Source of the DNA: a virus
Strand: one strand, 5' to 3'
IMG/VR virus record: IMGVR_UViG_3300042564_002100
Span: 1-20,088 of that record
DNA: 20,088 nt
Shown: positions 1-20,088 of the stretch, one piece after another
Position numbering within the stretch: position 1 is the stretch's first letter
Layout of the letters: every line of letters starts with the position of its first letter
The notes under the pieces: model-generated
Database searches by the model: none
Told to the model about the DNA's origin: nothing
Seen by the model: only the letters and a program-made list of their open reading frames with translations
Translations under genes and position numbers: made by a program

Positions 1-1366
1 TCATATCCGTATTTTTATTTGAGGTTAAATAATGTTCTTGGAACAATCCCAACTCATCGAAACCTTCAGGGTCAACATAGAATGTTTGTCCTTGACAACA
101 ATTTGTTGATTTGTGCCATTGTAACCAAGGTATTGTGAATCTGAAATTTCTCGCCATACCAACTGTATTGGTTTCATTCAAAGGATCGTATGGTTGTAGT
201 GCGAATTTCTCACCATAAACAAAATCAATAGTATTATTAGTATAATGGACAATAGCAATTGCTTTTTGGTCTTTACCCGGTACAATGATTTTATCACCAA
301 GAGAGTTATAATAATAAACAGAATCACTATCCGTTTGACCGTTACTATTACTGTAACCAAAAAATTCCTTACTACCCAAATAATTAACAGATCCGAAATT
401 GGTATAGTCCTTATAAACAGAACTATTTAAACCTGCCGGTGATTCTGACCAAGGAATATTCATATTCCATATATTAACATTAAATAAGTCAATGTCACAT
501 ACAGATTCAAAGTTTAAAACATCTTGATTCCAATGTGGCTCTGGTGTCCCACTATCGTAGAAATTGGTCATGCCTGATGGGTATACCAAGACCCTCGCTT
601 CTCCTCCTATTGATAATGTCGTATAGTTAGGAATATTTCTATCCACAGTGATTATATCACCATTAACTTCTGTAATTCTATATGTTAAAATAGGCGTACA
701 ACTTTGAAATGACATAAGGCAAGATCTGTCACTAGGTGGTACTGGTGGGCATGGATTGTATGGTGAATAAACTGTCGTACAAGGGGATGAAACCGAAGTA
801 TAAGTACAATTACAATTAGTTAATCCTAACCCATCATAATAAATTGTAACAAAATCTCCCGCTGAAAATGAATATGTTGTTGCGGTATTACAAATACTCG
901 GAAATAATTCCATAGTATTTTCGTTGAAACCCAAATCAATCATATTAACATAATAGTTACCCGTCTTTACATATTCACTACCCGTTCTCGCATACCAATT
1001 AGTAGGTAGTGTGGTTGTGTCAGCACTGAAAAATCCTCTCATAGGTGCAACATTATAGACATTTGAAACTATGGAATCCATAAATGGTATTCCGTATGTT
1101 GCTCCCGATACGGTATCAACATAATATGGGTACTTTACATTTTGAAAGTTGGCTTGGGGTACAGGCGCTCCATTTTGTGAATTAAAAGCGGGTTCTAACA
1201 CAACACTATTTGTTTGATTAAAACCGCTTATTGCGTTGTATGAAACCTCACTATCCCCAACTTGGAAATAAGTTATGTTAAAATTACCTTGTGATATTTT
1301 TTGTCTACCAATATCGGTAATTCTTGTATTAACTAAACCTGATGTATTTTTTAATATATAAGCCAT
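1..1366 (-). CDS. Putative tail-fibre or tail-collar structural protein, C-terminus missing
   Basis: The frame is open from ATG at 1366 to the left edge, giving about 455 codons with no stop, so the gene is cut by the window. The protein begins MAYILKNTSGLVNTRITDIG and continues with RQKISQGNFNITYFQVGDSE. The pattern of a short 'TD.GR' helix followed by a strand and 'GDSE' recalls the N-terminal attachment part of phage tail-collar fibre proteins; this is a resemblance I recognise by eye, not a search result. Further in there are Cys-rich stretches (NCNCTY, PCPPVPPSDRSC) and many aromatic and Asn/Gly residues, typical of beta-rich fibres. It is the last gene visible in the adhesin block, 28 bases after the 537-residue protein. 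The start is chosen because AGTATTTATA lies 4 bases upstream and the preceding gene ends at 1395. The receptor and exact role are unknown. Confidence 0.72.
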   Translation of the reverse strand, partial: MAYILKNTSGLVNTRITDIGRQKISQGNFNITYFQVGDSEVSYNAISGFNQTNSVVLEPAFNSQNGAPVPQANFQNVKYPYYVDTVSGATYGIPFMDSIVSNVYNVAPMRGFFSADTTTLPTNWYARTGSEYVKTGNYYVNMIDLGFNENTMELFPSICNTATTYSFSAGDFVTIYYDGLGLTNCNCTYTSVSSPCTTVYSPYNPCPPVPPSDRSCLMSFQSCTPILTYRITEVNGDIITVDRNIPNYTTLSIGGEARVLVYPSGMTNFYDSGTPEPHWNQDVLNFESVCDIDLFNVNIWNMNIPWSESPAGLNSSVYKDYTNFGSVNYLGSKEFFGYSNSNGQTDSDSVYYYNSLGDKIIVPGKDQKAIAIVHYTNNTIDFVYGEKFALQPYDPLNETNTVGMARNFRFTIPWLQWHKSTNCCQGQTFYVDPEGFDELGLFQEHYLTSNKNTDM

Positions 1367-1370
1367 TTTC

Positions 1371-1380
1371 TATAAATACT
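1371..1380 (-). promoter_or_regulatory. AGTATTTATA motif 4 bases before a start codon
   Basis: On the minus strand the gap reads AGTATTTATA, then GAAA, then the ATG at 1366. The same ten bases with the same 4-base spacer occur before the plus-strand gene at 3113. As a -10-type element it would place transcription start at or very near the ATG, giving a leaderless mRNA. It could instead be a translation-initiation signal. The function is inferred only from position and recurrence. Confidence 0.4.
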
Positions 1381-1394
1381 TTATTAGTTGTTTT

Positions 1395-3008
1395 TTATCG
1401 AGTAGGGATGTTCATAACATTACTTTGTGGTGATCCTGTGACATTACAACAACTACATCCCTCAATTTTTGATGTAGTTATATATACTTTATCGGTTGAT
1501 TTAACGTAACAAGACGAAGGATTCTTAATTATTGAAGTTATAACCGTTCCTGATATCACGTCAGTACCTGATATTGTAATACTATTATATGTTAAAGTGG
1601 TCGCGGTTGAGTATTCTTGAGTGTTTGGTAGACATGTTGAAACTCCTGTAGTTATGATTTGTGTTGATGATGCGGTTGTTGGTGTTATACTCACAGGAAC
1701 TCCATTTTTATGTACTTGAACAGTATTGGTTTTACTTCCAAACGCCGGATTGGTCGCCACCATAAAATTATTATATTCGGATAAATTAAATGTTATTATT
1801 GTACCGGACGGTAAGTTTGATATAATATTATTACTTATATCTCTAACGACAACTTTAAATGTTAATTTATACTGAGTTAACCCTAATTGTATTATTGTAG
1901 AATCTATCGTTAAATTATATGAATTTGTTGATGGTCCGTTTGGAACAACTGCGGTCTGTTGTAATACTGTTGACACTCCATCTTGTACCCAAATACTATA
2001 AGTACCCGCCGGTAAATTATTAAACATTGGTGATTGTTGTGTTGTAATACCTCCATCTTTTGAATATATTACGGGTGGTTGAGCGTTAACGGGATTTATT
2101 ATTAAAGATCCCGTAGAGGTGTTAACACAATTAGGAGCGCTAATAGTGGGTGAAATTAAACTCATTACAGGTGAAGTACAAGCCCCCACATATGTGGTGG
2201 CATTACCCGGTGGTCCGTATAAATCCCAACTACCTATTGGTGGAATACTTGCGTTAGTGTCTATTATCATTGTTTGTTGATTTATATCAACAAACCAATA
2301 AGCTTGTGATAATCCTCCCCATCTCATAACGAGAGATCCAGAACTCCAAGTTGGTTTACCATTTACAATATTACCCGTTGGTATGAATGTATATAATGTA
2401 GTATTTCCTTCAGAGTTAGTATATTGTAAACATAGATTAGGATACACAACAGGTATTGGTGTCGGTGTTGGTGTGGGAGTTGGTGATGGTGTTGGACTAG
2501 GAACAAGTAAAGAACAGGTTGTCGTTGCCGTATAATCAGGACCTCCGTTTGGCCAATTGTAGTCGGTTACTGTTACAGTATACACTCCATTGGAAGTAGC
2601 GTTAAGTAAAGTAGCCCCTAAAGTTCCTGTACTCCAAAGAATTTTGTAAGGTGGCGTTCCACCCGATACCAACATAGTAATACTATTATTTGATAGATTT
2701 GGACTACAAGTAATAGTCATTGGTGTTATTGTAACAATATCACACTGATTAACCCCTGTAACTCTATTACAAACATAAGATGCGGTACATACACCACAAT
2801 TAGCATAAGAGCCCTGTAAAGTGGTTCCTATTGATGAATATGTGGGTGAATTAGGATATAATGAACTAAAACTAATAACAGTACAACAACCACTGAAATA
2901 ATTTGGTACTACCACATACCATACTTGACCAAGAATTAATGGTGATGCGTAGTCGGTTAGTGTAAATGTAAAACTGGAATCACAACAGGATTTGAAATAA
3001 TATGTCAT
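1395..3008 (-). CDS. Mosaic tail adhesin: Cys-rich module, two SprB-like repeats, Pro-Thr linker
   Basis: This 537-residue protein is a string of distinct modules. Residues 1-75 form a Cys-rich unit (YFKSCCD, then WYVVVPNYFSGCCTV, then CGVC) that resembles the C-terminal half of the protein at 3274-4014. Residues about 95-168 form an SprB-like repeat (GGTPPYKILWSTG, then NGVYTVTVTDY). Residues 170-187 are a Pro-Thr linker. Residues about 189-277 form a Trp/Gly-rich domain containing MRWGG, IPPIGSW and a closing GAC. Residues about 286-355 are a second SprB-like repeat ending in LPAGTYSIWVQDG. The remainder (356-537) is beta-rich, ends in a Cys cluster (GCSCC), and is not recognised. No signal peptide is visible, which fits assembly in a phage particle rather than secretion. 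It lies downstream of the baseplate genes, so a host-binding fibre or adhesin is the likely role. The start follows a gap bearing an AGATATTTATA motif. Confidence 0.75.
   Translation of the reverse strand: MTYYFKSCCDSSFTFTLTDYASPLILGQVWYVVVPNYFSGCCTVISFSSLYPNSPTYSSIGTTLQGSYANCGVCTASYVCNRVTGVNQCDIVTITPMTITCSPNLSNNSITMLVSGGTPPYKILWSTGTLGATLLNATSNGVYTVTVTDYNWPNGGPDYTATTTCSLLVPSPTPSPTPTPTPTPIPVVYPNLCLQYTNSEGNTTLYTFIPTGNIVNGKPTWSSGSLVMRWGGLSQAYWFVDINQQTMIIDTNASIPPIGSWDLYGPPGNATTYVGACTSPVMSLISPTISAPNCVNTSTGSLIINPVNAQPPVIYSKDGGITTQQSPMFNNLPAGTYSIWVQDGVSTVLQQTAVVPNGPSTNSYNLTIDSTIIQLGLTQYKLTFKVVVRDISNNIISNLPSGTIITFNLSEYNNFMVATNPAFGSKTNTVQVHKNGVPVSITPTTASSTQIITTGVSTCLPNTQEYSTATTLTYNSITISGTDVISGTVITSIIKNPSSCYVKSTDKVYITTSKIEGCSCCNVTGSPQSNVMNIPTR
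2452..2493. repeat. Seven degenerate GGTGTT-type hexamers coding a Pro-Thr linker
   Basis: On the plus strand there are seven consecutive six-base units of the form GGNGNN or GGTATT (GGTATT, GGTGTC, GGTGTT, GGTGTG, GGAGTT, GGTGAT, GGTGTT). Read on the minus strand they encode alternating Pro with Thr, Ser or Ile, forming the linker at residues about 171-186 of the 537-residue protein. Short tandem units of this kind can change copy number by slippage, which would change linker length without shifting the frame. Confidence 0.7.
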
Positions 3009-3054
3009 TTAATAATAATTCTTACAAACTAAATAATAATTGGTTATTTTTAGT

Positions 3055-3065
3055 TATAAATATCT
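3055..3065 (-). promoter_or_regulatory. AGATATTTATA motif upstream of the 537-residue adhesin gene
   Basis: The minus strand reads ACATTAATTA, then AGATATTTATA, ending 46 bases before the ATG at 3008. This is the AGTATTTATA motif with one extra A. The upstream ACATTA is also found just before the motif copy at 10235-10244. The position, in the gap that separates this gene from the convergent pair upstream, suits a promoter that restarts transcription of the last part of the cluster. There is no experimental support. Confidence 0.38.
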
Positions 3066-3098
3066 TAATTAATGTTTTGTGGTATTAATAAGTATTAG

Positions 3099-3108
3099 AG
3101 TATTTATA
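3099..3108 (+). promoter_or_regulatory. AGTATTTATA motif 4 bases before the plus-strand small gene
   Basis: The plus strand reads AGTATTTATA, TTAT, then the ATG at 3113. The motif and the 4-base spacer match the copy before the gene at 1366 even though the two genes are on opposite strands. This supports a signal tied to gene starts rather than a strand bias in composition. A leaderless promoter is the simplest reading; no Shine-Dalgarno sequence is present. Confidence 0.42.
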
Positions 3109-3112
3109 TTAT

Positions 3113-3295
3113 ATGAAATTATTAAGAACTATAGAAAAGATGGTTACTGAAGCGGAGAGAGCTTATGAAGAAGCATGCGAGAGAGGCGCTAAACCACAGG
3201 TGTTGGATAAATTAGAAAAAAACTATTTGGACTCACTTAAACTGATGTCTTTATACGAGAGTGTTGAGAAAAATCAACAAGGGAAGACACCCTGA
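3113..3295 (+). CDS. Small charged helical protein, the only plus-strand gene
   Basis: The 60-residue product starts MKLLRTIEKMVTEAERAYEE and is rich in Glu, Lys, Leu and Ala with almost no Gly or Pro, so it should form a helical hairpin broken near residues 25-28 (GAKP). That composition is coherent and quite unlike the Thr/Ser/Asn/Gly-rich beta proteins around it, which argues for a real gene. It lies in the gap between two minus-strand genes, reads away from the 537-residue adhesin gene, and its last 22 bases overlap the end of the convergent gene at 3274-4014. The AGTATTTATA motif sits 4 bases before its ATG. I do not recognise the family. A small accessory or regulatory (moron-like) protein is possible, but no DNA-binding motif is evident. 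Confidence 0.62.
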   Translation: MKLLRTIEKMVTEAERAYEEACERGAKPQVLDKLEKNYLDSLKLMSLYESVEKNQQGKTP

Positions 3296-4021: not shown

Positions 4022-6307
4022 TTAACAAGATACACAATTTATATCATACAATATGGACACTTGTACAGTAACGTTTTGGTTTGATAATGTGTCTGTAGTT
4101 TCTTCACAACTTGTATTAACCGTAATTGTATTATTTTCACTATCAACAATAACCTCACCAATACCTGTTACACTACTTAGTAATGAGTCAACAGTATTGT
4201 ACCAACTAGTATTTGCCGGTACATCATTTAAAGTTGTTGCGGTATAGAATGATTGAGTAAAAGCACTTCCGGCAACTGTTGCCACCGCAGAGAATGTTGC
4301 TGAACTTAATAAACAATCAACACACCCACTAGTTAGATCCAAGTACCCCTCAAGTAACATTTTACCTAAAGTTCTTTCTGTAATATTACCACTTGATATC
4401 GTACTTTCACAAATATTATATTCACTAAGGTTTGATAATACAAATACCCCGGTTAATGTTACCGATTTAGTTATCGCACATCCATCGTTGTCTTGTACCG
4501 TTAAAGTGTATGTACCTGCGGATAGATTGTTAATTGACGTACCTGTTTGACCATTGACATTTGATGACCATGTTAGGGTAAATGGGGGTATTCCTTGATA
4601 TATGTTAGCAAATATCTCCCCATTGGATCCGTTAGTGGAGCTTGTCGGTATTAACATAAAATTTATTTGTTCACTATCATCTATTGAGAAATAATTAATC
4701 TCTCTACACCCAAAAAAATCCTCTACCATTACTTGATAATACCCTGACGATAGATTATTAAAAGTACATGAACTCGATGGGATTTGAGGTGATGGTGGAA
4801 CATAACTTCCATTACCCCCTTGAATTGAGTATATGAATGGTGAAGTTCCTCCGGTTGTTTTGAATATTTCAACTACCCCGTTATTACCACCACAAGTAGT
4901 TCCTGTTACTTGTGTTGTGATATTATATAGTGATGTTGCCGAGATTATAACGGTACCACTATAAGTACAAATATTGTCTGTTATTTTTAGTGTATACGTA
5001 TCGGGAAATAAACCATTAAACGACGTACTTAAAGACGTTGTTTGAACCGATACATCACCATTAGTATTTGTAAGAGAATAGTTATAATCAGAATTCGCAT
5101 TACCATTTAATATAATTGTTATACTACCATTGTTGTTACCACAAACACTATTAATTCTATCAATTGATCTTACGGCAAAACTATTTGGTTGGGCTAATAT
5201 TACTTGAGTTGGACTAACACACAGGGATGAGTCGGTTACAATTATATCGTATATACCCCCATATAAACCAGAAAAGGTATATGTTTGGTTATAAGATATA
5301 TCAATATAATTTATTGATGGTATATAATACCTATATGGTGGAGTTCCATTAATTACCGTTATCTGTATTGATCCGTTGGGGTCAAAGCAAGTCGGTGGTG
5401 TTGGTACCACTTCCTGTATTGTAACAGGGGGTACTTCACTTATTTGAGCACTCTGAGTATATGTACAACCTTGAGCGTCTGTCACTGTAACATTATACAC
5501 GCCGGCGGTTAGTCCCGTTATTGATGTACCCGTTAATGACTGACCATTAATTAATAATGATGGCGTTGGTGATGACCATAAATAAGTATATGGTGATACA
5601 CCCGTTAAACCTGTTATCAATATTTTACCGACCCCTTTTGAAACATCTCCACAATTTGAACTATTAACCGGATATAATCCGTAATTTAATTGAGTTGATT
5701 CCTGTATTATACAATTCTCGCTTCTTCCAGTACATCCACCGCCATCATCAGCAATCACATAATAAATACCATATGGTAAACTATCGAAAACTAACGAACC
5801 GGAGTCTACGGATACTAATCTTATTAAATCAGGATCCGATGGTTCGTTTGGTGGTGTAAGAACCGGAGTTACTCTATTGTTGTTGTTTTCTAAATATAAT
5901 TTATATGTAACAGTACCATTAACATTGGCAACCTCAGCAGTTAAGGATCCATTTTCTAAACCGCAAGTCGTTGCGCTTACGCTAGTAATTGACGCACAAC
6001 TGGATGCGGAAGAAACATATATATTAAGTGTTGTTCTATTGTTTTGTGTGGTGGCACTAGGTCCTCCACACGAATCATTTATTTCTAAAACATATAAACC
6101 GGCAGGTAAGTCACTATATGTTCTTGGTCCACTTAAGATACCTGTTTCAACTGTTTCTGAACCACCAGGTCTCCAAGGGTTAGGTAAAAACCAAGTAATA
6201 CTAATCGGTTCTGACGATGCGGACAAATTAAGGGTAAATGACCCCGATCCATTATTTTGACAGTCACCAATTACACTAAAACTACTAAAATTAAAATCGC
6301 AAGCCAT
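4022..6307 (-). CDS. Phage adhesin with about seven tandem SprB-like repeats
   Basis: The 761-residue protein is built from about seven units of 70-95 residues (roughly 4-85, 103-199, 206-290, 297-373, 380-455, 463-543, 548-619). Each follows the pattern 'C...NGSI.I...GGTPPY.Y.W......' then 'L.AG.Y.V.VTD..GC', for example SITGLTAGVYNVTVTDAQGC and NLSAGTYTLTVQDNDGC. This is the pattern of SprB repeats in the cell-surface gliding adhesins of flavobacteria. Residues 620-761 form a different C-terminal module that resembles the end of the gpI-like protein at 6309-9290. No signal peptide or type IX secretion tail is evident, so it is not a secreted host protein. The gene starts 1 base after the gpI-like gene stops, placing it in the tail operon. 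The likely role is a baseplate-attached fibre that contacts the host surface. Confidence 0.8.
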   Translation of the reverse strand: MACDFNFSSFSVIGDCQNNGSGSFTLNLSASSEPISITWFLPNPWRPGGSETVETGILSGPRTYSDLPAGLYVLEINDSCGGPSATTQNNRTTLNIYVSSASSCASITSVSATTCGLENGSLTAEVANVNGTVTYKLYLENNNNRVTPVLTPPNEPSDPDLIRLVSVDSGSLVFDSLPYGIYYVIADDGGGCTGRSENCIIQESTQLNYGLYPVNSSNCGDVSKGVGKILITGLTGVSPYTYLWSSPTPSLLINGQSLTGTSITGLTAGVYNVTVTDAQGCTYTQSAQISEVPPVTIQEVVPTPPTCFDPNGSIQITVINGTPPYRYYIPSINYIDISYNQTYTFSGLYGGIYDIIVTDSSLCVSPTQVILAQPNSFAVRSIDRINSVCGNNNGSITIILNGNANSDYNYSLTNTNGDVSVQTTSLSTSFNGLFPDTYTLKITDNICTYSGTVIISATSLYNITTQVTGTTCGGNNGVVEIFKTTGGTSPFIYSIQGGNGSYVPPSPQIPSSSCTFNNLSSGYYQVMVEDFFGCREINYFSIDDSEQINFMLIPTSSTNGSNGEIFANIYQGIPPFTLTWSSNVNGQTGTSINNLSAGTYTLTVQDNDGCAITKSVTLTGVFVLSNLSEYNICESTISSGNITERTLGKMLLEGYLDLTSGCVDCLLSSATFSAVATVAGSAFTQSFYTATTLNDVPANTSWYNTVDSLLSSVTGIGEVIVDSENNTITVNTSCEETTDTLSNQNVTVQVSILYDINCVSC

Positions 6308-9290: not shown

Positions 9291-10198
9291 TATTGAGTAA
9301 TATTTACGAAGTTTTTACTGTAATCTATATTAGTTCCTCTATCTTGTCTAACTTCATATAATAACTCATTAAACTCATCTCTAACTTCATAAAGATTGTA
9401 CTGTTTGTAAATATTGTTATCACTGTCGTATATCGTGTAGATACCATCATCCATAGATTTGGTTTGATTACCGTATAGAGCAATAGCAAGAGTTGATATA
9501 TCGTGTTCTACTATCTCAACCTCAATACTAATAGGGTTGAAGTATGTGTTACTTATAGTTACATTTTGATTTGGCTGACCGATGAATGGGGTTGCGTTTG
9601 GTTTGTTTGTTGGTGACGAAGATGGTGATACCGTACAAAATAATAAGTTCGTAGCCCCATCAACATATCTATATCTAATTGACTTTTGTGATGAATTTGT
9701 TTGATTTTCCGTAACAGGCTCACAATAAAATGAAGATGTTATAATTCTAAAAAAGTTGGGTATTTTACTTCCGTCAGGGTTTAAATATTCTATTCTGAAT
9801 CCAACTAATCCTTGAGCAACAAATTTGTTTCTGTATTGAGATGGTACTTGTTCTAAATTAAAAATTAGTCCTTTAACGTTCGGTATTGCGGATAACACAC
9901 CACAATCATTAATTGTTGTTCTAATTTGTGCAGGTCTAATATATAGGTTGTAAATACCCAAAGCATTAAATTGGTCGGCAGGTAATTTTAGGTTATATAA
10001 ACCACCTAGTATCTCAACATCGGCATTACCACCCGTATCTCCATTATTGAAGTATGGTTTTAGTACGTCTTGAGCATTTAATGTTGTAAGCGTAAAATTA
10101 TCGGTATTATCCCTGCTTGGGGTGTAATTTAATATTATCTCAACGTCTTCGGGGGAAACATCCGCCGGTCTTATAGTTCCATATGATCCAGTTGCCAT
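9290..10198 (-). CDS. Unrecognised virion structural protein
   Basis: The 302-residue protein begins MATGSYGTIRPADVSPEDVE and has no membrane segment, signal peptide or catalytic motif. The N-terminal part reads as an attachment region ('GTIRP.DVSPEDVEI...YTPSR'), followed by a mixed alpha/beta section (residues 80-190) with LYIRPAQIRTTI and a late Asp/Tyr-rich tail (IYTIYDSDNNIYKQYNLYEV). It directly precedes the gpI/gp7-like gene and overlaps it by one base, so it is probably a baseplate or tail component made together with it. The start at 10198 is preferred because an upstream in-frame ATG at 10231 meets a stop after seven codons. I do not know the family by name. Confidence 0.68.
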   Translation of the reverse strand: MATGSYGTIRPADVSPEDVEIILNYTPSRDNTDNFTLTTLNAQDVLKPYFNNGDTGGNADVEILGGLYNLKLPADQFNALGIYNLYIRPAQIRTTINDCGVLSAIPNVKGLIFNLEQVPSQYRNKFVAQGLVGFRIEYLNPDGSKIPNFFRIITSSFYCEPVTENQTNSSQKSIRYRYVDGATNLLFCTVSPSSSPTNKPNATPFIGQPNQNVTISNTYFNPISIEVEIVEHDISTLAIALYGNQTKSMDDGIYTIYDSDNNIYKQYNLYEVRDEFNELLYEVRQDRGTNIDYSKNFVNITQ

Positions 10199-10207
10199 CT
10201 TTACTAA

Positions 10208-10231
10208 TTAAATTATTATTTTTTTAACCAT
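10208..10231 (-). other. Seven-codon upstream reading frame (MVKKIII)
   Basis: An ATG lies 3 bases after the AGTATTTATA motif and opens a frame encoding MVKKIII followed by TAA. It is in frame with the main gene, whose ATG comes 9 bases after this stop. If the motif is a promoter that starts transcription near the first ATG, as inferred at 1371 and 3099, this small frame would sit at the 5' end of the mRNA and could affect initiation at the main start. It may equally be chance in AT-rich DNA. Confidence 0.25.
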
Positions 10232-10234
10232 ATT

Positions 10235-10244
10235 TATAAATACT
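10235..10244 (-). promoter_or_regulatory. AGTATTTATA motif in the gap before the 302-residue gene
   Basis: The minus strand reads ACATTA, AGTATTTATA, AAT, then ATG of a seven-codon frame; the real gene starts at 10198. The motif overlaps a perfect 12-base palindrome TATTTATAAATA (10231-10242), so TATAAATA, the classical T4 late-promoter core, is also present in the sense direction. It lies in one of the few real gaps in this cluster, directly upstream of the gene pair 302-residue protein/gpI-like protein. It is a candidate promoter on position and recurrence only. Confidence 0.42.
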
Positions 10245-10249
10245 TAATG

Positions 10250-14058: not shown

Positions 14059-17000
14059 TTAAGCAAATCCGTCTGTATCAATCCATTTAGCGGTAAATCT
14101 ATCAAAAGCCGACGCTCCTTTAGTTAATCCAAAATAAAAATAGAACGGGGCTCCAAGTAAATACGATCCAGGTATCCCTGTAGTTGGTTTATAGTCAAAT
14201 TCACCCGTCGCATCGTTAATTGGGTTACTTATTGTTGAGTAATCATCAACATTATAAATCCACCCTTTATGATATTTTATTTGATTTATGTTAGGATCTG
14301 GTTGAAAGTTTTTTGATGCTGAGTATAACCTATCTATTTTTTGATATCCATATGAAAAAATTTCATTTGACCAATTATTTTTTTGATTTCCGAAAATATT
14401 ACTTACAGATTCATTACCTTCAATTTTCCAAAGATAAAATGGTACGACTTGTGTTTTTAATGGTATGTAACTGAAAGCACAAGCGTTATCAGCACCAATT
14501 CTACCATCTGGGTTATAAATTGTTCTATTTGGTGAAATATAATCTCTAGCCTGAGAATCTCCGGTATAAAAAATTCCAAATACAATATCACTAGTTTTAT
14601 TAAAAAATGTAGGTAGGAATAAAGATGAGTTAAAAGTCGTACCTGTTGGTTCCGGATAGCTTTCGGGTTCGTAAGCCGCAATTCCGAATTGTGAGTTTGT
14701 CGCAATCATTTGAGCAAAATCACCATCAACAAATTTTCTTTTCCTACTATCAAAGAAATTTAAAACACTAGATGATCTAGATTTAAAAAAGGTAGTAAAT
14801 GAAGTGTTTGCTAATCTTGATAATACAAATATATTTAATAAATCTGAAGTATCTCCGAATGTAGTTGATTCTAATTTATTCATAATATATCCATCCCAAT
14901 TTCCACTTTGAGATAAGAATTTTTGTAGTTCGTCTCTTGGACCTAAATCCATAATTGTCGTGGGGTACATATGGTTTTTTTTATTACCTCCAACATCTTC
15001 ATCCCCGTCCCTACCTATAAATCTATTACTACTGTCATTATACGGGGCACTTCTGTAATAAAAATTAAATGTGTCTGGATGTAAAAAAATATTAGTAGTA
15101 CAAACCTTATTATATGGTTGACTAGGTGGATTTGCGTTAGGTCCTGTAAAATATCTTGTATTTCTAAAAGGAAAAGCGTATAAGGTACCATTAATCCAAC
15201 TATTAAAGAACCCATGAGCAAAAACTTCCCTACAAGCACCAAAATTAATATTCATTCTTGAATACCATTCATTAACTAATTCTCTATCGTTTTTAACATT
15301 ATTAGTCTCGTTATAAGGTGGTCTAACCAATGAATAACAAGAACCTTCAATAAAATACCTCTCTCCCTGATAATATTGACAAGCACTAGGTTGTTGAACA
15401 TATATACTATCGGGTGGGTCTGATTGATAACACTCAATAGGTACTAAAGAATTACAGGTAAATGTATCTAATAAAGCAGCAATTTTATTAGGTATTTCAG
15501 GTTCAGCCGGATTATATGCTATGATTTCAGGTTCGTTTACAAGAAAAGTTGGTGATGGATTAGAGCCTGCCGAAACAACACCATCGTCAGATACTTCCGC
15601 AATATAAAATTGACCATTTGCCATCATTGTCATACTATTATTACCGAATACTTGAAATCTGTCTGACGTTGGCATTCTATCACTCCTCATTACAATCCTT
15701 TCACTATTACTCATTAAGAAACAATCATAATCTTGTGTCGGTTCTACATATTTTCTAGAATAATATGCGGAATATCTCCTATAATATAACTGAACGACAT
15801 CTAAACTACCGGTCCAATTTAAATTAGCCCCTCCTGTAAGAATCATGGATCCACCTTCTATACTCTCACCAGGTACGTACCCAGATTGAAATTGTTCACC
15901 AACAGAGTAATTTGTTAGTACATCATAATTATATTTTCTAGTGTAGAAATTAGCAACTCCAACCCTTAATCCACCCCCAAATGATGCTGGTGCTATGGTG
16001 GTATAATTACTCATACTAGAGTAGTTAACAGGAGGGGTTATATCTGTATTTCCAATATTATCCGCCTCAGATAATGAAGAGTATTTATAGACACTTCTGG
16101 TTCTAAATTGTGTCCATTGGGTTGGTGATGGTTTAAAGTGAAATGATTTAAAGAAAGTTCTTCCGCTCGAGTAAACGTCAATACCTGAATTAGTATTTCC
16201 AAGTCCGTCATGTTTAACACATCTATGTGCTTTATTTCTTGCCGAAGTATTGCCAGGAATAGTTGGTGCGTCACCAAAATCCAGTCCATCATTTGGTTGT
16301 AAAGGTATGTTTAGTTTATAGTTACCTGAAACACTAAATCTCCAGTGGTCATAATTTGAAAATAACCTACCTAATCCATATGTAACGGGTTGTCTTGTTG
16401 AATGTGGGTCAACACCTCTAACTAATATTGTAAAATATGTACTTTCTTTTTGATTATAATTCATCCAAGGATTACCATAAGACCATCCAAAACCAGGAGT
16501 TCCTCCTTGTGAGAGATTATAAAAATTAATTGCTGACCAACGATCAATAACTCTATAACTAAAAGAGCACCATCGCATTTGATTAAATGAATCCATAGGT
16601 ACCGACATACCAATTTCATTTAAAGTCATTGCAGTTATAACTTGAAAATACTCTATATCGGTTGGGTATCTTAAATAGTTGTCATTATCCTCATTAGTTT
16701 GATTTAACCTGTATGCGGTTATTAACCTTTCCCCCGTATATGGATTAGTATGACTAACATTAATTGTTGTCGCGGAATTTACATTGATAGGAGTTCCTGT
16801 AATTGATGACGCTCCATAAAAATTTGGAGTACTACCACTTAAATTAGGGTCATTAAATGAATACGGGTTATTAAATGTTAGTATAGTCCCTGCATCATAT
16901 TTTTCCTCAATTGCTAAAATCAAAACATTATCGTAGTGAAATCCATTACTAGTAGAATTTAAATCTAGGTAGTTATTGGGTTGCTGATCCCAATTTAGAT

Positions 17001-19233
17001 TTACCCCATTTAATTCAGTGTTAAAACACACCTTAATTTGTGATGTTCCCCCACCTAACATAGACCCGTAGGTTGGGGAAACATTTAACGGTGAGTTATT
17101 AGCAACTTCACCAAAAACGGCATTTCCAAAAAATTTACCTTTAAAGTTCATTAGATTTACTCGTTCGTGTAAAGGTAAATCTAAAGTGTAAATACCAACA
17201 TAATCAGGCGCCGCAGTCCCATCACCATCATAATCATATCTAAATAATGATATTTGGGGGGTTCTATATCTCATCCATTCATTAGCAGGATCTGTGCCTT
17301 GGTATCCCGCAAATATTTGTTGGAACACTGGTGTAAAATCATTATAATCGTCTCCGTTTGGCCAATCATAACTATTAGGGTCAATAAAATCGGCTAATAT
17401 ACTATTATTTACAAATTGAGCTTGTTTTGTTAGTGTACCACTTGGAGACGTAACTGTTGTTGTTTGTGATTTACAAGAACAAATCTCGCAGTCCGGATAT
17501 GAATATAATGGTAAATTTATTCTTGAAAACCCTTCAAGTAATTTCCTTATTTTACCTATTGGTCCGTTTAGACTAAAAAAACTTTGACCGTCATGAATTT
17601 TTTGTAGTAAATCTATTATATCAGTTAATAACTTACATATTACGTGAAATATCTTAACAACTATTTTAATAATAACAGTAATAAACCCCAATAAAATGGT
17701 AAAAGCGATGAATAGTAAATCTGGCTTAAATTGAGCGTCATTTGTAGGTAATTTATTACTAACACTATCACACTCCTCATCGGTTATATTTTTAATACCT
17801 AAATATCTTCTATTTAATGTACCTTTTGTATATCTTGTTATAAGTTGTGAGATAGTATATACTTTATTATAAGTCATTTCATAGAACATATCCTTACAAT
17901 CAATAGCATCCTGAATCATTATTTCACCTTCAGTGTTTCCAGTGACCCCGTAATCCGCCCAATCTTTACTAAAGGCATAAGACGCTTTGAGTAATTGATA
18001 ATTAATATTAGGTCCTGATGTGAATACACTAATAGGATCAGTGCTTGAGTTCGTCCACCCATGTTCTTTAACATTAGGTACTAAGAATGTACCTCTTTTA
18101 ACGGGAGCGCTCAAATCAGGTGTTTGAGTCCACCTTATTTTAAATCTATATTTGGCTTTGGTTGGTACTCCTTTCCTTTCGTCGTTTGAAAATATTTGCT
18201 CCCCAAATTCATTGGTTATTATATAATCCATGTTCATTGGAGTGTCTAATAACCACGTACCGTCATAATCAATAACGTTCCCATTATTCTCCAATTCGTA
18301 TTCCTCTAATACGGGTCTACCATTTATGTCTTGTTTTATTGTTTGTCTAACCGCTAATATTTGACCAGGTCCTGAGATTAGAGAACACATTTGTCCTGAC
18401 TTTAACTTAGGTTTACAGTTCCTTTTAAGAGCTCCCTTATCAATATCCGAGAATATTGACCCCATAAAAATAGCGGTTGGTTTAATAGTTACATTAGCCT
18501 CGGCAGTTAAATCAAAATCGGTTCTTGTAATTGATGGTTGACAAATTTCAGGTTCTCCCCACAATGGTAATACCTCAACGGTCTTATTTAAGAATATAAT
18601 TTGTGGTAGTGTTGTTAGGTTCTCTGATGTTTGGAATTTAGTTCCGTTAACTTGACTATCAGTTGCTAACCCTATTCGTATTAAATCTTGTGGTGATTGT
18701 GAAAATGGACCCATATCAGATAAGTCCAAATTCATTAAAATTGTATAACTACCAACAGGAACTCCGAACATCATAAAGTCACCACTATCATTGGTTGTTA
18801 CCGTAAACTTATAATACTTGTCGTATAACTCAATGGCCGTAGGATTTGTTAATACATCCTCTAAGTCAGGAAATGAACCTGTTGCTGAATGACCAGGAAA
18901 TGATGGTTTGTATGGTAATAAATTATACCTATAACCATCCTCATTAATGTCACTTATTGTTTTATAGGGGTATATTTCACTAATAGAAGGATTTAACTCA
19001 TCAGCTGCGGTTATTGGTATAAATAACGATAATTTAGCATTAGGAATTCCATATCCATCATTAACTGACACTCTACCCGCAATTACTCCATAGTCAGAAC
19101 ATTGTCTTATGTATATCTCACTTTGTGATAATTTTAAGGATAATATTTCCAAAAAATCAAAATCTTGATCTAAATTTACAACTACCGATTTGTCGATTCC
19201 GACCTGCGTTCTTACCCTATATGATTTTGACAT
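14059..19233 (-). CDS. Giant (1724-residue) baseplate-associated protein with internal hydrophobic segment
   Basis: Residues about 48-170 look like a carboxypeptidase-regulatory or CnaB-type beta domain: GVIAGRVSVNDGYGIPNAKL, a long insert, then NDSGDFMMFGVPVGSYTIL. Residues about 503-543 are strongly hydrophobic (PDLLFIAFTILLGFITVIIK and IVVKIFHVICKLL), long enough for one or two membrane-spanning helices, and are followed by a Cys cluster (DCEICSC, 581-587). Residues 667-677 (DYDGDGTAAPD) resemble an Asp-rich calcium loop. The remainder (about 700-1724) is beta-rich, full of Asn, Tyr, Phe and Trp, with no recognised enzyme motif. The gene follows the gp6/gpJ-like wedge gene after a 71-base AT-rich gap. 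The size and position suggest a central baseplate or tail-tip protein; the hydrophobic segment could enter the host membrane during infection. That role is an inference. Confidence 0.7.
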   Translation of the reverse strand: MSKSYRVRTQVGIDKSVVVNLDQDFDFLEILSLKLSQSEIYIRQCSDYGVIAGRVSVNDGYGIPNAKLSLFIPITAADELNPSISEIYPYKTISDINEDGYRYNLLPYKPSFPGHSATGSFPDLEDVLTNPTAIELYDKYYKFTVTTNDSGDFMMFGVPVGSYTILMNLDLSDMGPFSQSPQDLIRIGLATDSQVNGTKFQTSENLTTLPQIIFLNKTVEVLPLWGEPEICQPSITRTDFDLTAEANVTIKPTAIFMGSIFSDIDKGALKRNCKPKLKSGQMCSLISGPGQILAVRQTIKQDINGRPVLEEYELENNGNVIDYDGTWLLDTPMNMDYIITNEFGEQIFSNDERKGVPTKAKYRFKIRWTQTPDLSAPVKRGTFLVPNVKEHGWTNSSTDPISVFTSGPNINYQLLKASYAFSKDWADYGVTGNTEGEIMIQDAIDCKDMFYEMTYNKVYTISQLITRYTKGTLNRRYLGIKNITDEECDSVSNKLPTNDAQFKPDLLFIAFTILLGFITVIIKIVVKIFHVICKLLTDIIDLLQKIHDGQSFFSLNGPIGKIRKLLEGFSRINLPLYSYPDCEICSCKSQTTTVTSPSGTLTKQAQFVNNSILADFIDPNSYDWPNGDDYNDFTPVFQQIFAGYQGTDPANEWMRYRTPQISLFRYDYDGDGTAAPDYVGIYTLDLPLHERVNLMNFKGKFFGNAVFGEVANNSPLNVSPTYGSMLGGGTSQIKVCFNTELNGVNLNWDQQPNNYLDLNSTSNGFHYDNVLILAIEEKYDAGTILTFNNPYSFNDPNLSGSTPNFYGASSITGTPINVNSATTINVSHTNPYTGERLITAYRLNQTNEDNDNYLRYPTDIEYFQVITAMTLNEIGMSVPMDSFNQMRWCSFSYRVIDRWSAINFYNLSQGGTPGFGWSYGNPWMNYNQKESTYFTILVRGVDPHSTRQPVTYGLGRLFSNYDHWRFSVSGNYKLNIPLQPNDGLDFGDAPTIPGNTSARNKAHRCVKHDGLGNTNSGIDVYSSGRTFFKSFHFKPSPTQWTQFRTRSVYKYSSLSEADNIGNTDITPPVNYSSMSNYTTIAPASFGGGLRVGVANFYTRKYNYDVLTNYSVGEQFQSGYVPGESIEGGSMILTGGANLNWTGSLDVVQLYYRRYSAYYSRKYVEPTQDYDCFLMSNSERIVMRSDRMPTSDRFQVFGNNSMTMMANGQFYIAEVSDDGVVSAGSNPSPTFLVNEPEIIAYNPAEPEIPNKIAALLDTFTCNSLVPIECYQSDPPDSIYVQQPSACQYYQGERYFIEGSCYSLVRPPYNETNNVKNDRELVNEWYSRMNINFGACREVFAHGFFNSWINGTLYAFPFRNTRYFTGPNANPPSQPYNKVCTTNIFLHPDTFNFYYRSAPYNDSSNRFIGRDGDEDVGGNKKNHMYPTTIMDLGPRDELQKFLSQSGNWDGYIMNKLESTTFGDTSDLLNIFVLSRLANTSFTTFFKSRSSSVLNFFDSRKRKFVDGDFAQMIATNSQFGIAAYEPESYPEPTGTTFNSSLFLPTFFNKTSDIVFGIFYTGDSQARDYISPNRTIYNPDGRIGADNACAFSYIPLKTQVVPFYLWKIEGNESVSNIFGNQKNNWSNEIFSYGYQKIDRLYSASKNFQPDPNINQIKYHKGWIYNVDDYSTISNPINDATGEFDYKPTTGIPGSYLLGAPFYFYFGLTKGASAFDRFTAKWIDTDGFA

Positions 19234-19304
19234 TTAATACTTTTTGAATAAATAGTTTATATTCTACTTTCAAAAAATAATTGATTTAATAAAAAAATAA
19301 ATTA
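19234..19304 (-). other. AT-rich gap with a degenerate copy of the start motif
   Basis: This gap separates the gp6/gpJ-like gene from the 1724-residue gene. The minus strand has ACTATTTATT (19256 to 19247), which matches AGTATTTATA at 8 of 10 positions and ends 13 bases before the ATG. An A/T-only run (19289-19299) and a weak 5-base inverted repeat (TTGAT/ATCAA) are present, but there is no GC-rich stem, so no convincing terminator. It may hold a weak promoter for the giant gene. Confidence 0.3.
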
Positions 19305-20088
19305 TCAACTGAAATTAACCGTTTTTAGGTTTTTAACCCTAACTCTAATATCTCTACCGGGATATCTAACTTGATATATCTGTGTCGGTTCAGCGAATAT
19401 CGTTTCGTCAATTAATTCTATCTGTCTTGTTGTTGAATCCAAATATCTTTGTGATGTTTGTGATGATGAATACTGACCACCTACTTCATTTATAACATCT
19501 ATCGCCGCCACACTAATAACACCGTTTAAAGTTTGTACTTGTCTTCTTATTTCAGATATATAAACATTCTCACCCATCTCTCTAACTGACGGTGAGAAGT
19601 ATTTGGTTACAATATCAATTATTTGTGAAATAACCACACCTTGATTTTGACTTGAATCCAATACAACTGATATGTCCATACTCAAGTCTACAACTTGAGC
19701 ACTTTCTACTGATATATAGTCATTAATCATTCGGTAGTTTGAAAGATAACTAGCGATGTTTGTTTTGAGTGTGTTTGAAATAACATTACTTAAACCCCCA
19801 CTTGAGTCGTATGATAATATCTGAATTTTAATTTTATTCTCTTGTTCGGTTACCGCCACTTTGGCAGGTGCTCCGAATTGTGATGGCATTTTTCTAATTA
19901 AAGATTCGTAGTCATTAATTGTAACCGCTCTGTTTTGTGCTGCGAAATTGTATGTTACATAATTTCTAACTTCTTCAACCGTTGGTACATTCGCCCCACC
20001 AATCGCCGCAGTCGTATTATTACATCTCAATGAATTGATTACTGTTGTGTTTTGTGTTTGTGATGGTCCATTAACGAAGAATGAGACC
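19305..20088 (-). CDS. Baseplate wedge protein, gp6/gpJ-like, N-terminus missing
   Basis: The frame is open to the right edge and yields 260 codons of the C-terminal part, starting VSFFVNGPSQTQNTTVINSL. A TTG near 20030 is an internal leucine, not the start. The region EVRNYVTYNFAAQNRAVTIN, then DYESLIRKMPSQFGAPAKVA, is the hallmark of T4 gp6 and P2 gpJ-type baseplate wedge proteins ('NRAVT..DYE.L'). The later part (YFSPSVREMGENVYISEIRR, then LNGVISV) matches the C-terminal gpJ region, where successive wedges contact one another. In contractile tails this protein forms the wedge ring together with the gp7/gpI partner, seen here at 6309-9290. It is upstream of, and probably co-transcribed with, the whole minus-strand cluster. 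The product acts in the virion baseplate and has no membrane or signal segment. Confidence 0.78.
   Translation of the reverse strand, partial: VSFFVNGPSQTQNTTVINSLRCNNTTAAIGGANVPTVEEVRNYVTYNFAAQNRAVTINDYESLIRKMPSQFGAPAKVAVTEQENKIKIQILSYDSSGGLSNVISNTLKTNIASYLSNYRMINDYISVESAQVVDLSMDISVVLDSSQNQGVVISQIIDIVTKYFSPSVREMGENVYISEIRRQVQTLNGVISVAAIDVINEVGGQYSSSQTSQRYLDSTTRQIELIDETIFAEPTQIYQVRYPGRDIRVRVKNLKTVNFS

Follow-up and report, generated by a model that had tools for sequence, protein, structure and literature searches.

The window analysed here, a 20,088-base virus record, is a fragment that carries no sigma gene and holds 12 genes, 11 of them on the minus strand. A fragment of a baseplate wedge gene, the last gene of the window, places it in the structural region of a myovirus. 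The gaps between genes carry a motif with the core TATTTAT, which we read as a promoter element; predicted promoters are called near class where TATTTAT ends 4-6 bases before the start codon and far class where it ends 13-17 bases before it. The features concerned are listed below.

2..1366, minus strand: 455-aa open-ended gene of the structural cluster, with a near-class promoter upstream
1367..1378, minus strand: predicted near-class promoter; TATTTAT at 1378-1372, predicted +1 at 1366, the A of the ATG; leaderless mRNA predicted
3050..3062, minus strand: predicted promoter; TATTTAT at 3062-3056, predicted +1 at 3050, leader of about 42 nt to the gene start at 3008
3101..3112, plus strand: predicted near-class promoter; TATTTAT at 3101-3107, predicted +1 at 3113, the A of the ATG
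3113..3295, plus strand: 60-aa gene, the sole plus-strand gene of the window, with a near-class promoter upstream; homologues in relatives G001 and G009
10230..10242, minus strand: predicted promoter; TATTTAT at 10242-10236, predicted +1 at about 10230, leader of about 32 nt to the gene start at 10198
14059..19233, minus strand: 1724-aa gene adjoining the baseplate wedge gene; query used to find relatives
19242..19254, minus strand: predicted far-class promoter; TATTTAT at 19254-19248, predicted +1 at 19242 within an A run, 9-nt leader to 19233
19305..20087, minus strand: baseplate wedge (gp6 / baseplate J-like) gene fragment

PHROG and Pfam searches returned no family for the 455-aa gene. The ten-base word AGTATTTATA occurs exactly at 1371-1380 (minus), 3099-3108 (plus), 10235-10244 (minus) and 16080-16089 (plus), and with one mismatch allowed there are 11 copies in the window against 8.0 expected. 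As this count is at chance level, the signal of the ten-base word in the window is positional and its raw number uninformative. On the strand of the downstream gene, the core TATTTAT lies at 1372-1378 (minus), 3056-3062 (minus), 3101-3107 (plus), 10236-10242 (minus) and 19248-19254 (minus), and these five copies occupy all four gaps longer than 20 bases (1367-1394, 3009-3112, 10199-10249 and 19234-19304). On the minus strand of the window, 4 copies fall in 264 gap bases, versus 6 in 19.9 kb of sense-strand coding sequence (P about 2e-6). The coordinates thus bear out the sequence-only reading of this DNA, which had placed AGTATTTATA 4 bases before the ATG of the genes at 1366 (minus) and 3113 (plus) and had seen copies or variants, including those near 3055-3065 and 19247-19256, filling every gap longer than 20 bases; it is the core that all four gaps contain. 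The same reading had set the copy at 10235-10244 just before an ATG; that ATG is present, but it opens only MVKKIII followed by a stop, and the real start, at 10198, lies 37 bases past the seven-base core. The copy at 16080-16089, which had been offered as a counterexample inside a gene, is a weak one, being antisense to the gene at 14059-19233 (minus). The micro-ORF encoding MVKKIII (10208-10231, minus) has its ATG at the predicted transcription start, and L023 and L020, the two closest relatives, retain this ATG together with the first codons; it is possibly a leaderless leader peptide, or else a product of chance.

A scan with the 1724-aa gene returned 22 relatives, the closest long one being G001 (261 kb), which is 86% identical over 15.4 kb, and with a sigma-like protein of G001 as query G007 (322 kb) and G009 (203 kb) were added as further long contigs. 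A near-identity search of known phages gave no match, nor did a protein search with the 1724-aa gene. Because the pooled k-mers of all contigs are partly redundant, with one conserved block lying before the 1724-aa gene, the main statistics rely on G001, G007 and G009, for which gene starts were predicted by the analysis's own caller, one method being used for all; these three genomes share ancestry, and their counts are not fully independent. The predicted promoters of the window recur in the relatives. TATTTAT before the homologue of the gene at 2-1366 is kept in G001, G002, G006 and G007, reads TATTTAG in G003 and is absent in G004, while the core of the plus-strand promoter (3101-3107) is conserved in G001 and G009 and that of the promoter at 3050..3062 (minus) in G001, G002, G004 and G006. 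The core of the promoter at 10230..10242 (minus) lies nearer the ATG in many relatives, and the one before the 1724-aa gene is unchanged in 22 of 22, with a spacer to the ATG of 14-20 bases. Upstream of the latter gene, a block TTTTTTGAAAGTAGAATATAAACTATTTATTCAAAAA (19241-19277, minus), mostly GAAAATAG in relatives, is strongly conserved in 22 of 22 relatives and is readable as an inverted repeat around the promoter.

Enrichment of the motif in the relatives is pronounced. In the pooled, partly redundant contigs, the upstream gaps contain 19 copies of AGTATTTATA and the coding sense contains none, and TATTTAT ranks first among the 7-mers of the upstream gaps of G001 (101 copies versus 21.8 expected), G007 (108 versus 20.1) and G009 (77 versus 18.8). 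The total of 286 copies in these three genomes compares with a mean of 49.6 in shuffled gap sequences, the shuffling being intended to preserve dinucleotides. Spacing to the start is bimodal: 70 copies end 4-6 bases before it, versus 2.9 in the shuffles, and 78 end 13-17 bases before it, versus 4.1. Both peaks are present in all three genomes, weakest in G009, and only about a third of motif-bearing starts show the 4-6 base spacer, the second class being that at 13-17. The flanks, mostly A or G before and A or T after, give the consensus RTATTTATW. Enrichment at gene starts with a fixed spacer of 3-5 bases, across the genome and its relatives, was the check that had been proposed for the window's motif; it was run, and three related genomes passed it. 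No such spacing peak appears in LR756508 or Microcystis phage Mel-JY01, both of which have the gp6-like protein in common with the window. The upstream gaps of the pooled relatives are also enriched in TCACGACA / ATCACGAC (10 versus 0.4 expected), which are perhaps terminator stems.

The motif is concentrated at the heads of transcription units. TATTTAT lies at most 25 nt from the start of 214 of the 554 genes preceded by a gap of at least 10 bases, versus only 8 of the 318 whose gaps are smaller (P 1.5e-39). Convergent gaps hold a single copy in 4740 strand-bases, and in 22 of 80 divergent gaps two copies point outward, one per gene. Gaps of 40 or more bases that contain an intrinsic terminator carry the motif more often than those that do not (28/48 versus 108/339; P 6e-4), and it often lies 10-15 bases past the terminator hairpin. 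It also seldom shares a gene with TAnnTTTG, the host sigma-A box, being present at only 8 of the 74 genes with that box (P 1e-8), and the eight-base core TATTTATA lacks the TTTG of this Bacteroidetes -7 box. Placement at unit heads, near-absence from convergent gaps, association with terminators and rarity beside TAnnTTTG are together more in keeping with a promoter than with a signal in the mRNA. No -35 element was found in 177 aligned sites, which show only T-rich bases near -27. The genes that carry the motif include a terminase gene, the baseplate-region homologue of the window's 1724-aa gene and a DnaB-like helicase gene, and since a helicase belongs to the class, "late" may here mean dependent on a phage sigma and not strictly late; the TATTTAT class may comprise middle plus late genes.

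Alignment of the sites points to where transcription would begin. With the first T of TATTTAT numbered -12, far-class sites have A at the predicted -1, +1 and +2 with frequencies of 0.88, 0.91 and 0.89, and for all copies at least 12 bases from the ATG the values are 0.77, 0.73 and 0.71; control 7-mers have no such A run downstream. In near-class genes it is the A of the ATG that falls on -1, +1 or +2, and in the window it is exactly +1 for the genes at 1366 and 3113. At the 70 near-class starts of the three genomes (versus 2.9 in shuffles), the first T of the box is about 12 bp ahead of the start codon, as in known leaderless genes. Host-type boxes show a similar arrangement: in the gaps of G001, G007 and G009, TAnnTTTG ends exactly 4 bases before the ATG in 24 cases (12 in G009), and in F. 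johnsoniae 4-5 nt separate this box from the start site (PMC6847099), so that both promoter types appear, independently, to be placed for leaderless mRNA. Among the genes with TAnnTTTG in this position are some that are small or lipoprotein-like, as well as genes for a DNA methyltransferase and an RNA ligase. In the hosts, absent or very short leaders are the exception: 5.5% are leaderless in F. psychrophilum (PMC9723704), and 3.7% of leaders in B. thetaiotaomicron are under 10 nt (PMC7366714). Phage tRNA genes with TAnnTTTG upstream were seen in G001 (82758-82832 and 87275-87350, minus) and G007 (90379 and 94254, plus); all four tRNA promoters with any match are of this type and none has TATTTAT, so the phage box could not be examined at non-coding genes by way of the tRNAs.

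A candidate reader of the box is encoded by the relatives. The family phrog_234, which includes T4 gp55, weakly matches a single protein in each of G001, G007, G009 and Flavobacterium phage immuto. The protein of G001 (40578-41321) is strongly conserved and has 254 relatives in one viral collection. Its profile finds T4 gp55 (7d7c_F) as the best PDB sequence match, at a weak E of 0.084 and collinear over about 130 residues, and Pfam Sigma70_r2 matches at only E 0.18. In an AlphaFold model of moderate confidence (pLDDT 77, pTM 0.46), residues 26-127 adopt the fold of region 2 of sigma-E (4lup, Z 8.8, rmsd 2.9) and the C-terminal 90 residues form an additional helical domain; among the structure matches listed, almost all of the best are sigma factors. 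Superposition on T4 gp55 gives Z 8.0 over 114 residues (rmsd 4.6), though a Z near 8 for helical folds can reflect a common arrangement. A genome scan with the protein returned one phage-like contig in a MAG and no host link. Searches of the phages for RNAP beta-prime or another multisubunit RNA polymerase gene gave no match, and the host polymerase is therefore assumed; nor was a T4-type clamp (phrog_223) or DnaN clamp (PF00712) matched, searches that a divergent clamp could escape. These lines are individually suggestive, and the divergent gp55-like sigma of the relatives is the probable reader of the TATTTAT box.

Other explanations of the motif must be weighed against this evidence. Had UAUUUAU been a translation-initiation signal, its fixed distance guiding the Bacteroidetes ribosome to the AUG, the short and constant spacing to the ATG would be expected, the more so as such hosts do not use the Shine-Dalgarno sequence (PMC6847099). 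We consider this very unlikely, as operon-internal genes are translated too and nearly lack the motif (8/318), genes with TAnnTTTG promoters are largely devoid of it, it comes after terminators, and the A run holds its distance to the motif and not merely to the ATG. The sequence-only reading had offered an unusual initiation signal as its second option, and the operon-internal genes and those with host-type promoters disfavour it; its first, a phage late promoter giving leaderless transcripts, is the one that enrichment and spacing in the three genomes support well. Cleavage of read-through RNA at UAUUUAU by an endonuclease, leaving 5' ends near the AUG, would likewise yield short leaders at fixed spacing, yet copies directly behind strong terminators would meet little read-through RNA and divergent gaps can hold one outward copy for each gene, which makes such processing highly improbable.

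Two further possibilities concern what kind of promoter this is. Since TATTTATA is the reverse complement of the T4 late core TATAAATA, and the palindrome TATTTATAAATA is present in some gaps (near 10231-10242 in the window), the copies could be canonical T4 late promoters lying on the opposite strand. This is scarcely credible: TATAAATA in sense is weakly enriched and has no spacing peak whereas TATTTATA in sense is sharply placed, in co-directional arrays such sites would drive transcription away from the gene beside them, and the T4 late region, analysed as a control of the method, returns TATAAATA as its top 8-mer. Recognition of TATTTAT by an alternative sigma of the host, in place of a phage sigma, is also improbable. 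The motif alone is certain, its reader being deduced, and no phage RNA polymerase was found, both of which would suit a host factor. However, the start-site map of F. psychrophilum comprises TAnnTTTG variants, sigma-54, TAnnTTGY and a CGT-box class with no TATTTAT (PMC9723704), the phages themselves encode a conserved sigma-like protein, and an AT-rich MAG of unassigned phylum shows no TATTTAT spacing peak.

We conclude that the motif is very probably the -10 element of a phage-specific promoter in large T4-related Bacteroidetes phages, probably read by a phage gp55-like sigma and predicted to give leaderless or short-leader mRNAs. The motif and its orientation, bimodal spacing, unit-head location, the A run, its rarity at genes with host-type promoters and the conserved sigma-region-2 protein were computed, and from these we infer promoter function, sigma pairing, exact start site, leaderless translation and timing. 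In the mechanism we propose, host RNA polymerase carrying the phage-encoded gp55-like sigma would read RTATTTATW and initiate about 12 (11-13) bases past the first T, on an A. For near-class genes this A would be that of the start codon or adjacent to it, producing a leaderless mRNA, and in the far class the start would fall within the AAA run, producing a leader of roughly 8-12 nt. Searches of the open-access literature turned up no report that treats TATTTATA as a phage promoter.

The proposed promoter resembles those of T4 late genes in consisting of one AT-rich 8-base -10 element that lacks a -35 element, and the systems share a sigma region 2 resembling gp55, T4-type structural genes and a presumed host polymerase. 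The core differs in being TATTTATA in sense and not TATAAATA, a change of only the two central bases from AA to TT, and unlike T4 late promoters the box is placed for mRNAs that are leaderless or have leaders of about 10 nt. The sigma is longer than T4 gp55 (about 247 versus 185 aa) and has the additional C-terminal helical domain, and the gp45-like clamp of the T4 late apparatus was not detected in the phrog_223 and PF00712 searches. In cellular genomes, leaderless genes are marked by a TANNNT box that precedes the start codon by about 12 bp (Zheng et al. 2011, PMC3160421). The phage box likewise has its first T about 12 bases ahead of the A of the ATG, as a -10 box that would force a leaderless mRNA; unlike the cellular boxes, it is phage-specific and found in phages predicted to infect Bacteroidetes, hosts in which few mRNAs are leaderless.

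As to host, the 761-aa tail-region protein of the window (4022-6307, minus) contains the SprB repeat (PF13573), a Bacteroidetes gliding adhesin repeat, above the cut-off. G007 and G009 encode bS21 and are similar in size and GC to the bS21-encoding Bacteroidetes lake phages of Chen et al. 2022 (PMC9723584), a report that makes no mention of a promoter, sigma or leaderless feature. The TAnnTTTG boxes, the SprB repeat and bS21 in G007 and G009 agree with membership in this lake-phage group. The bS21 gene of G007 has TATTTAT 5 bases before its ATG, and G001, the closest long relative of the window, yielded no bS21 match that reaches the family cut-off. Flavobacterium phage immuto (MW353175) is alike in encoding a distant gp55-like protein (immuto26A_153) and in its enrichment of TATTTAT (37 versus 6.3); it differs in having no 4-6 base peak, most spacings being 11-24, which implies longer leaders. 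Its upstream gaps (L055-L058) also show strong enrichment of overlapping words around TATTTAGGTATCAATAATT, which seem to mark a promoter or regulatory class that is related to this one yet distinct.

Our findings offer a readable regulatory code for widespread uncultivated large phages, in which the genes dependent on the phage sigma would become listable from sequence. They show how a T4-like late box can change, alongside a co-occurring sigma whose specificity is testable, and suggest that many phage mRNAs are leaderless in hosts that seldom make such messages. It is conceivable, though we regard it as rather unlikely, that a two-tier leaderless programme, with an altered T4-late box and phage sigma on one tier and host-type promoters at start codons on the other, sets phage messages apart from those of the host at the ribosome, and that in members encoding bS21 this protein, whose own gene apparently has a leaderless promoter, could retune ribosomes to favour them. 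Leaderless mRNAs of this kind would make testable the question of why some of these phages carry a ribosomal protein for translation initiation.
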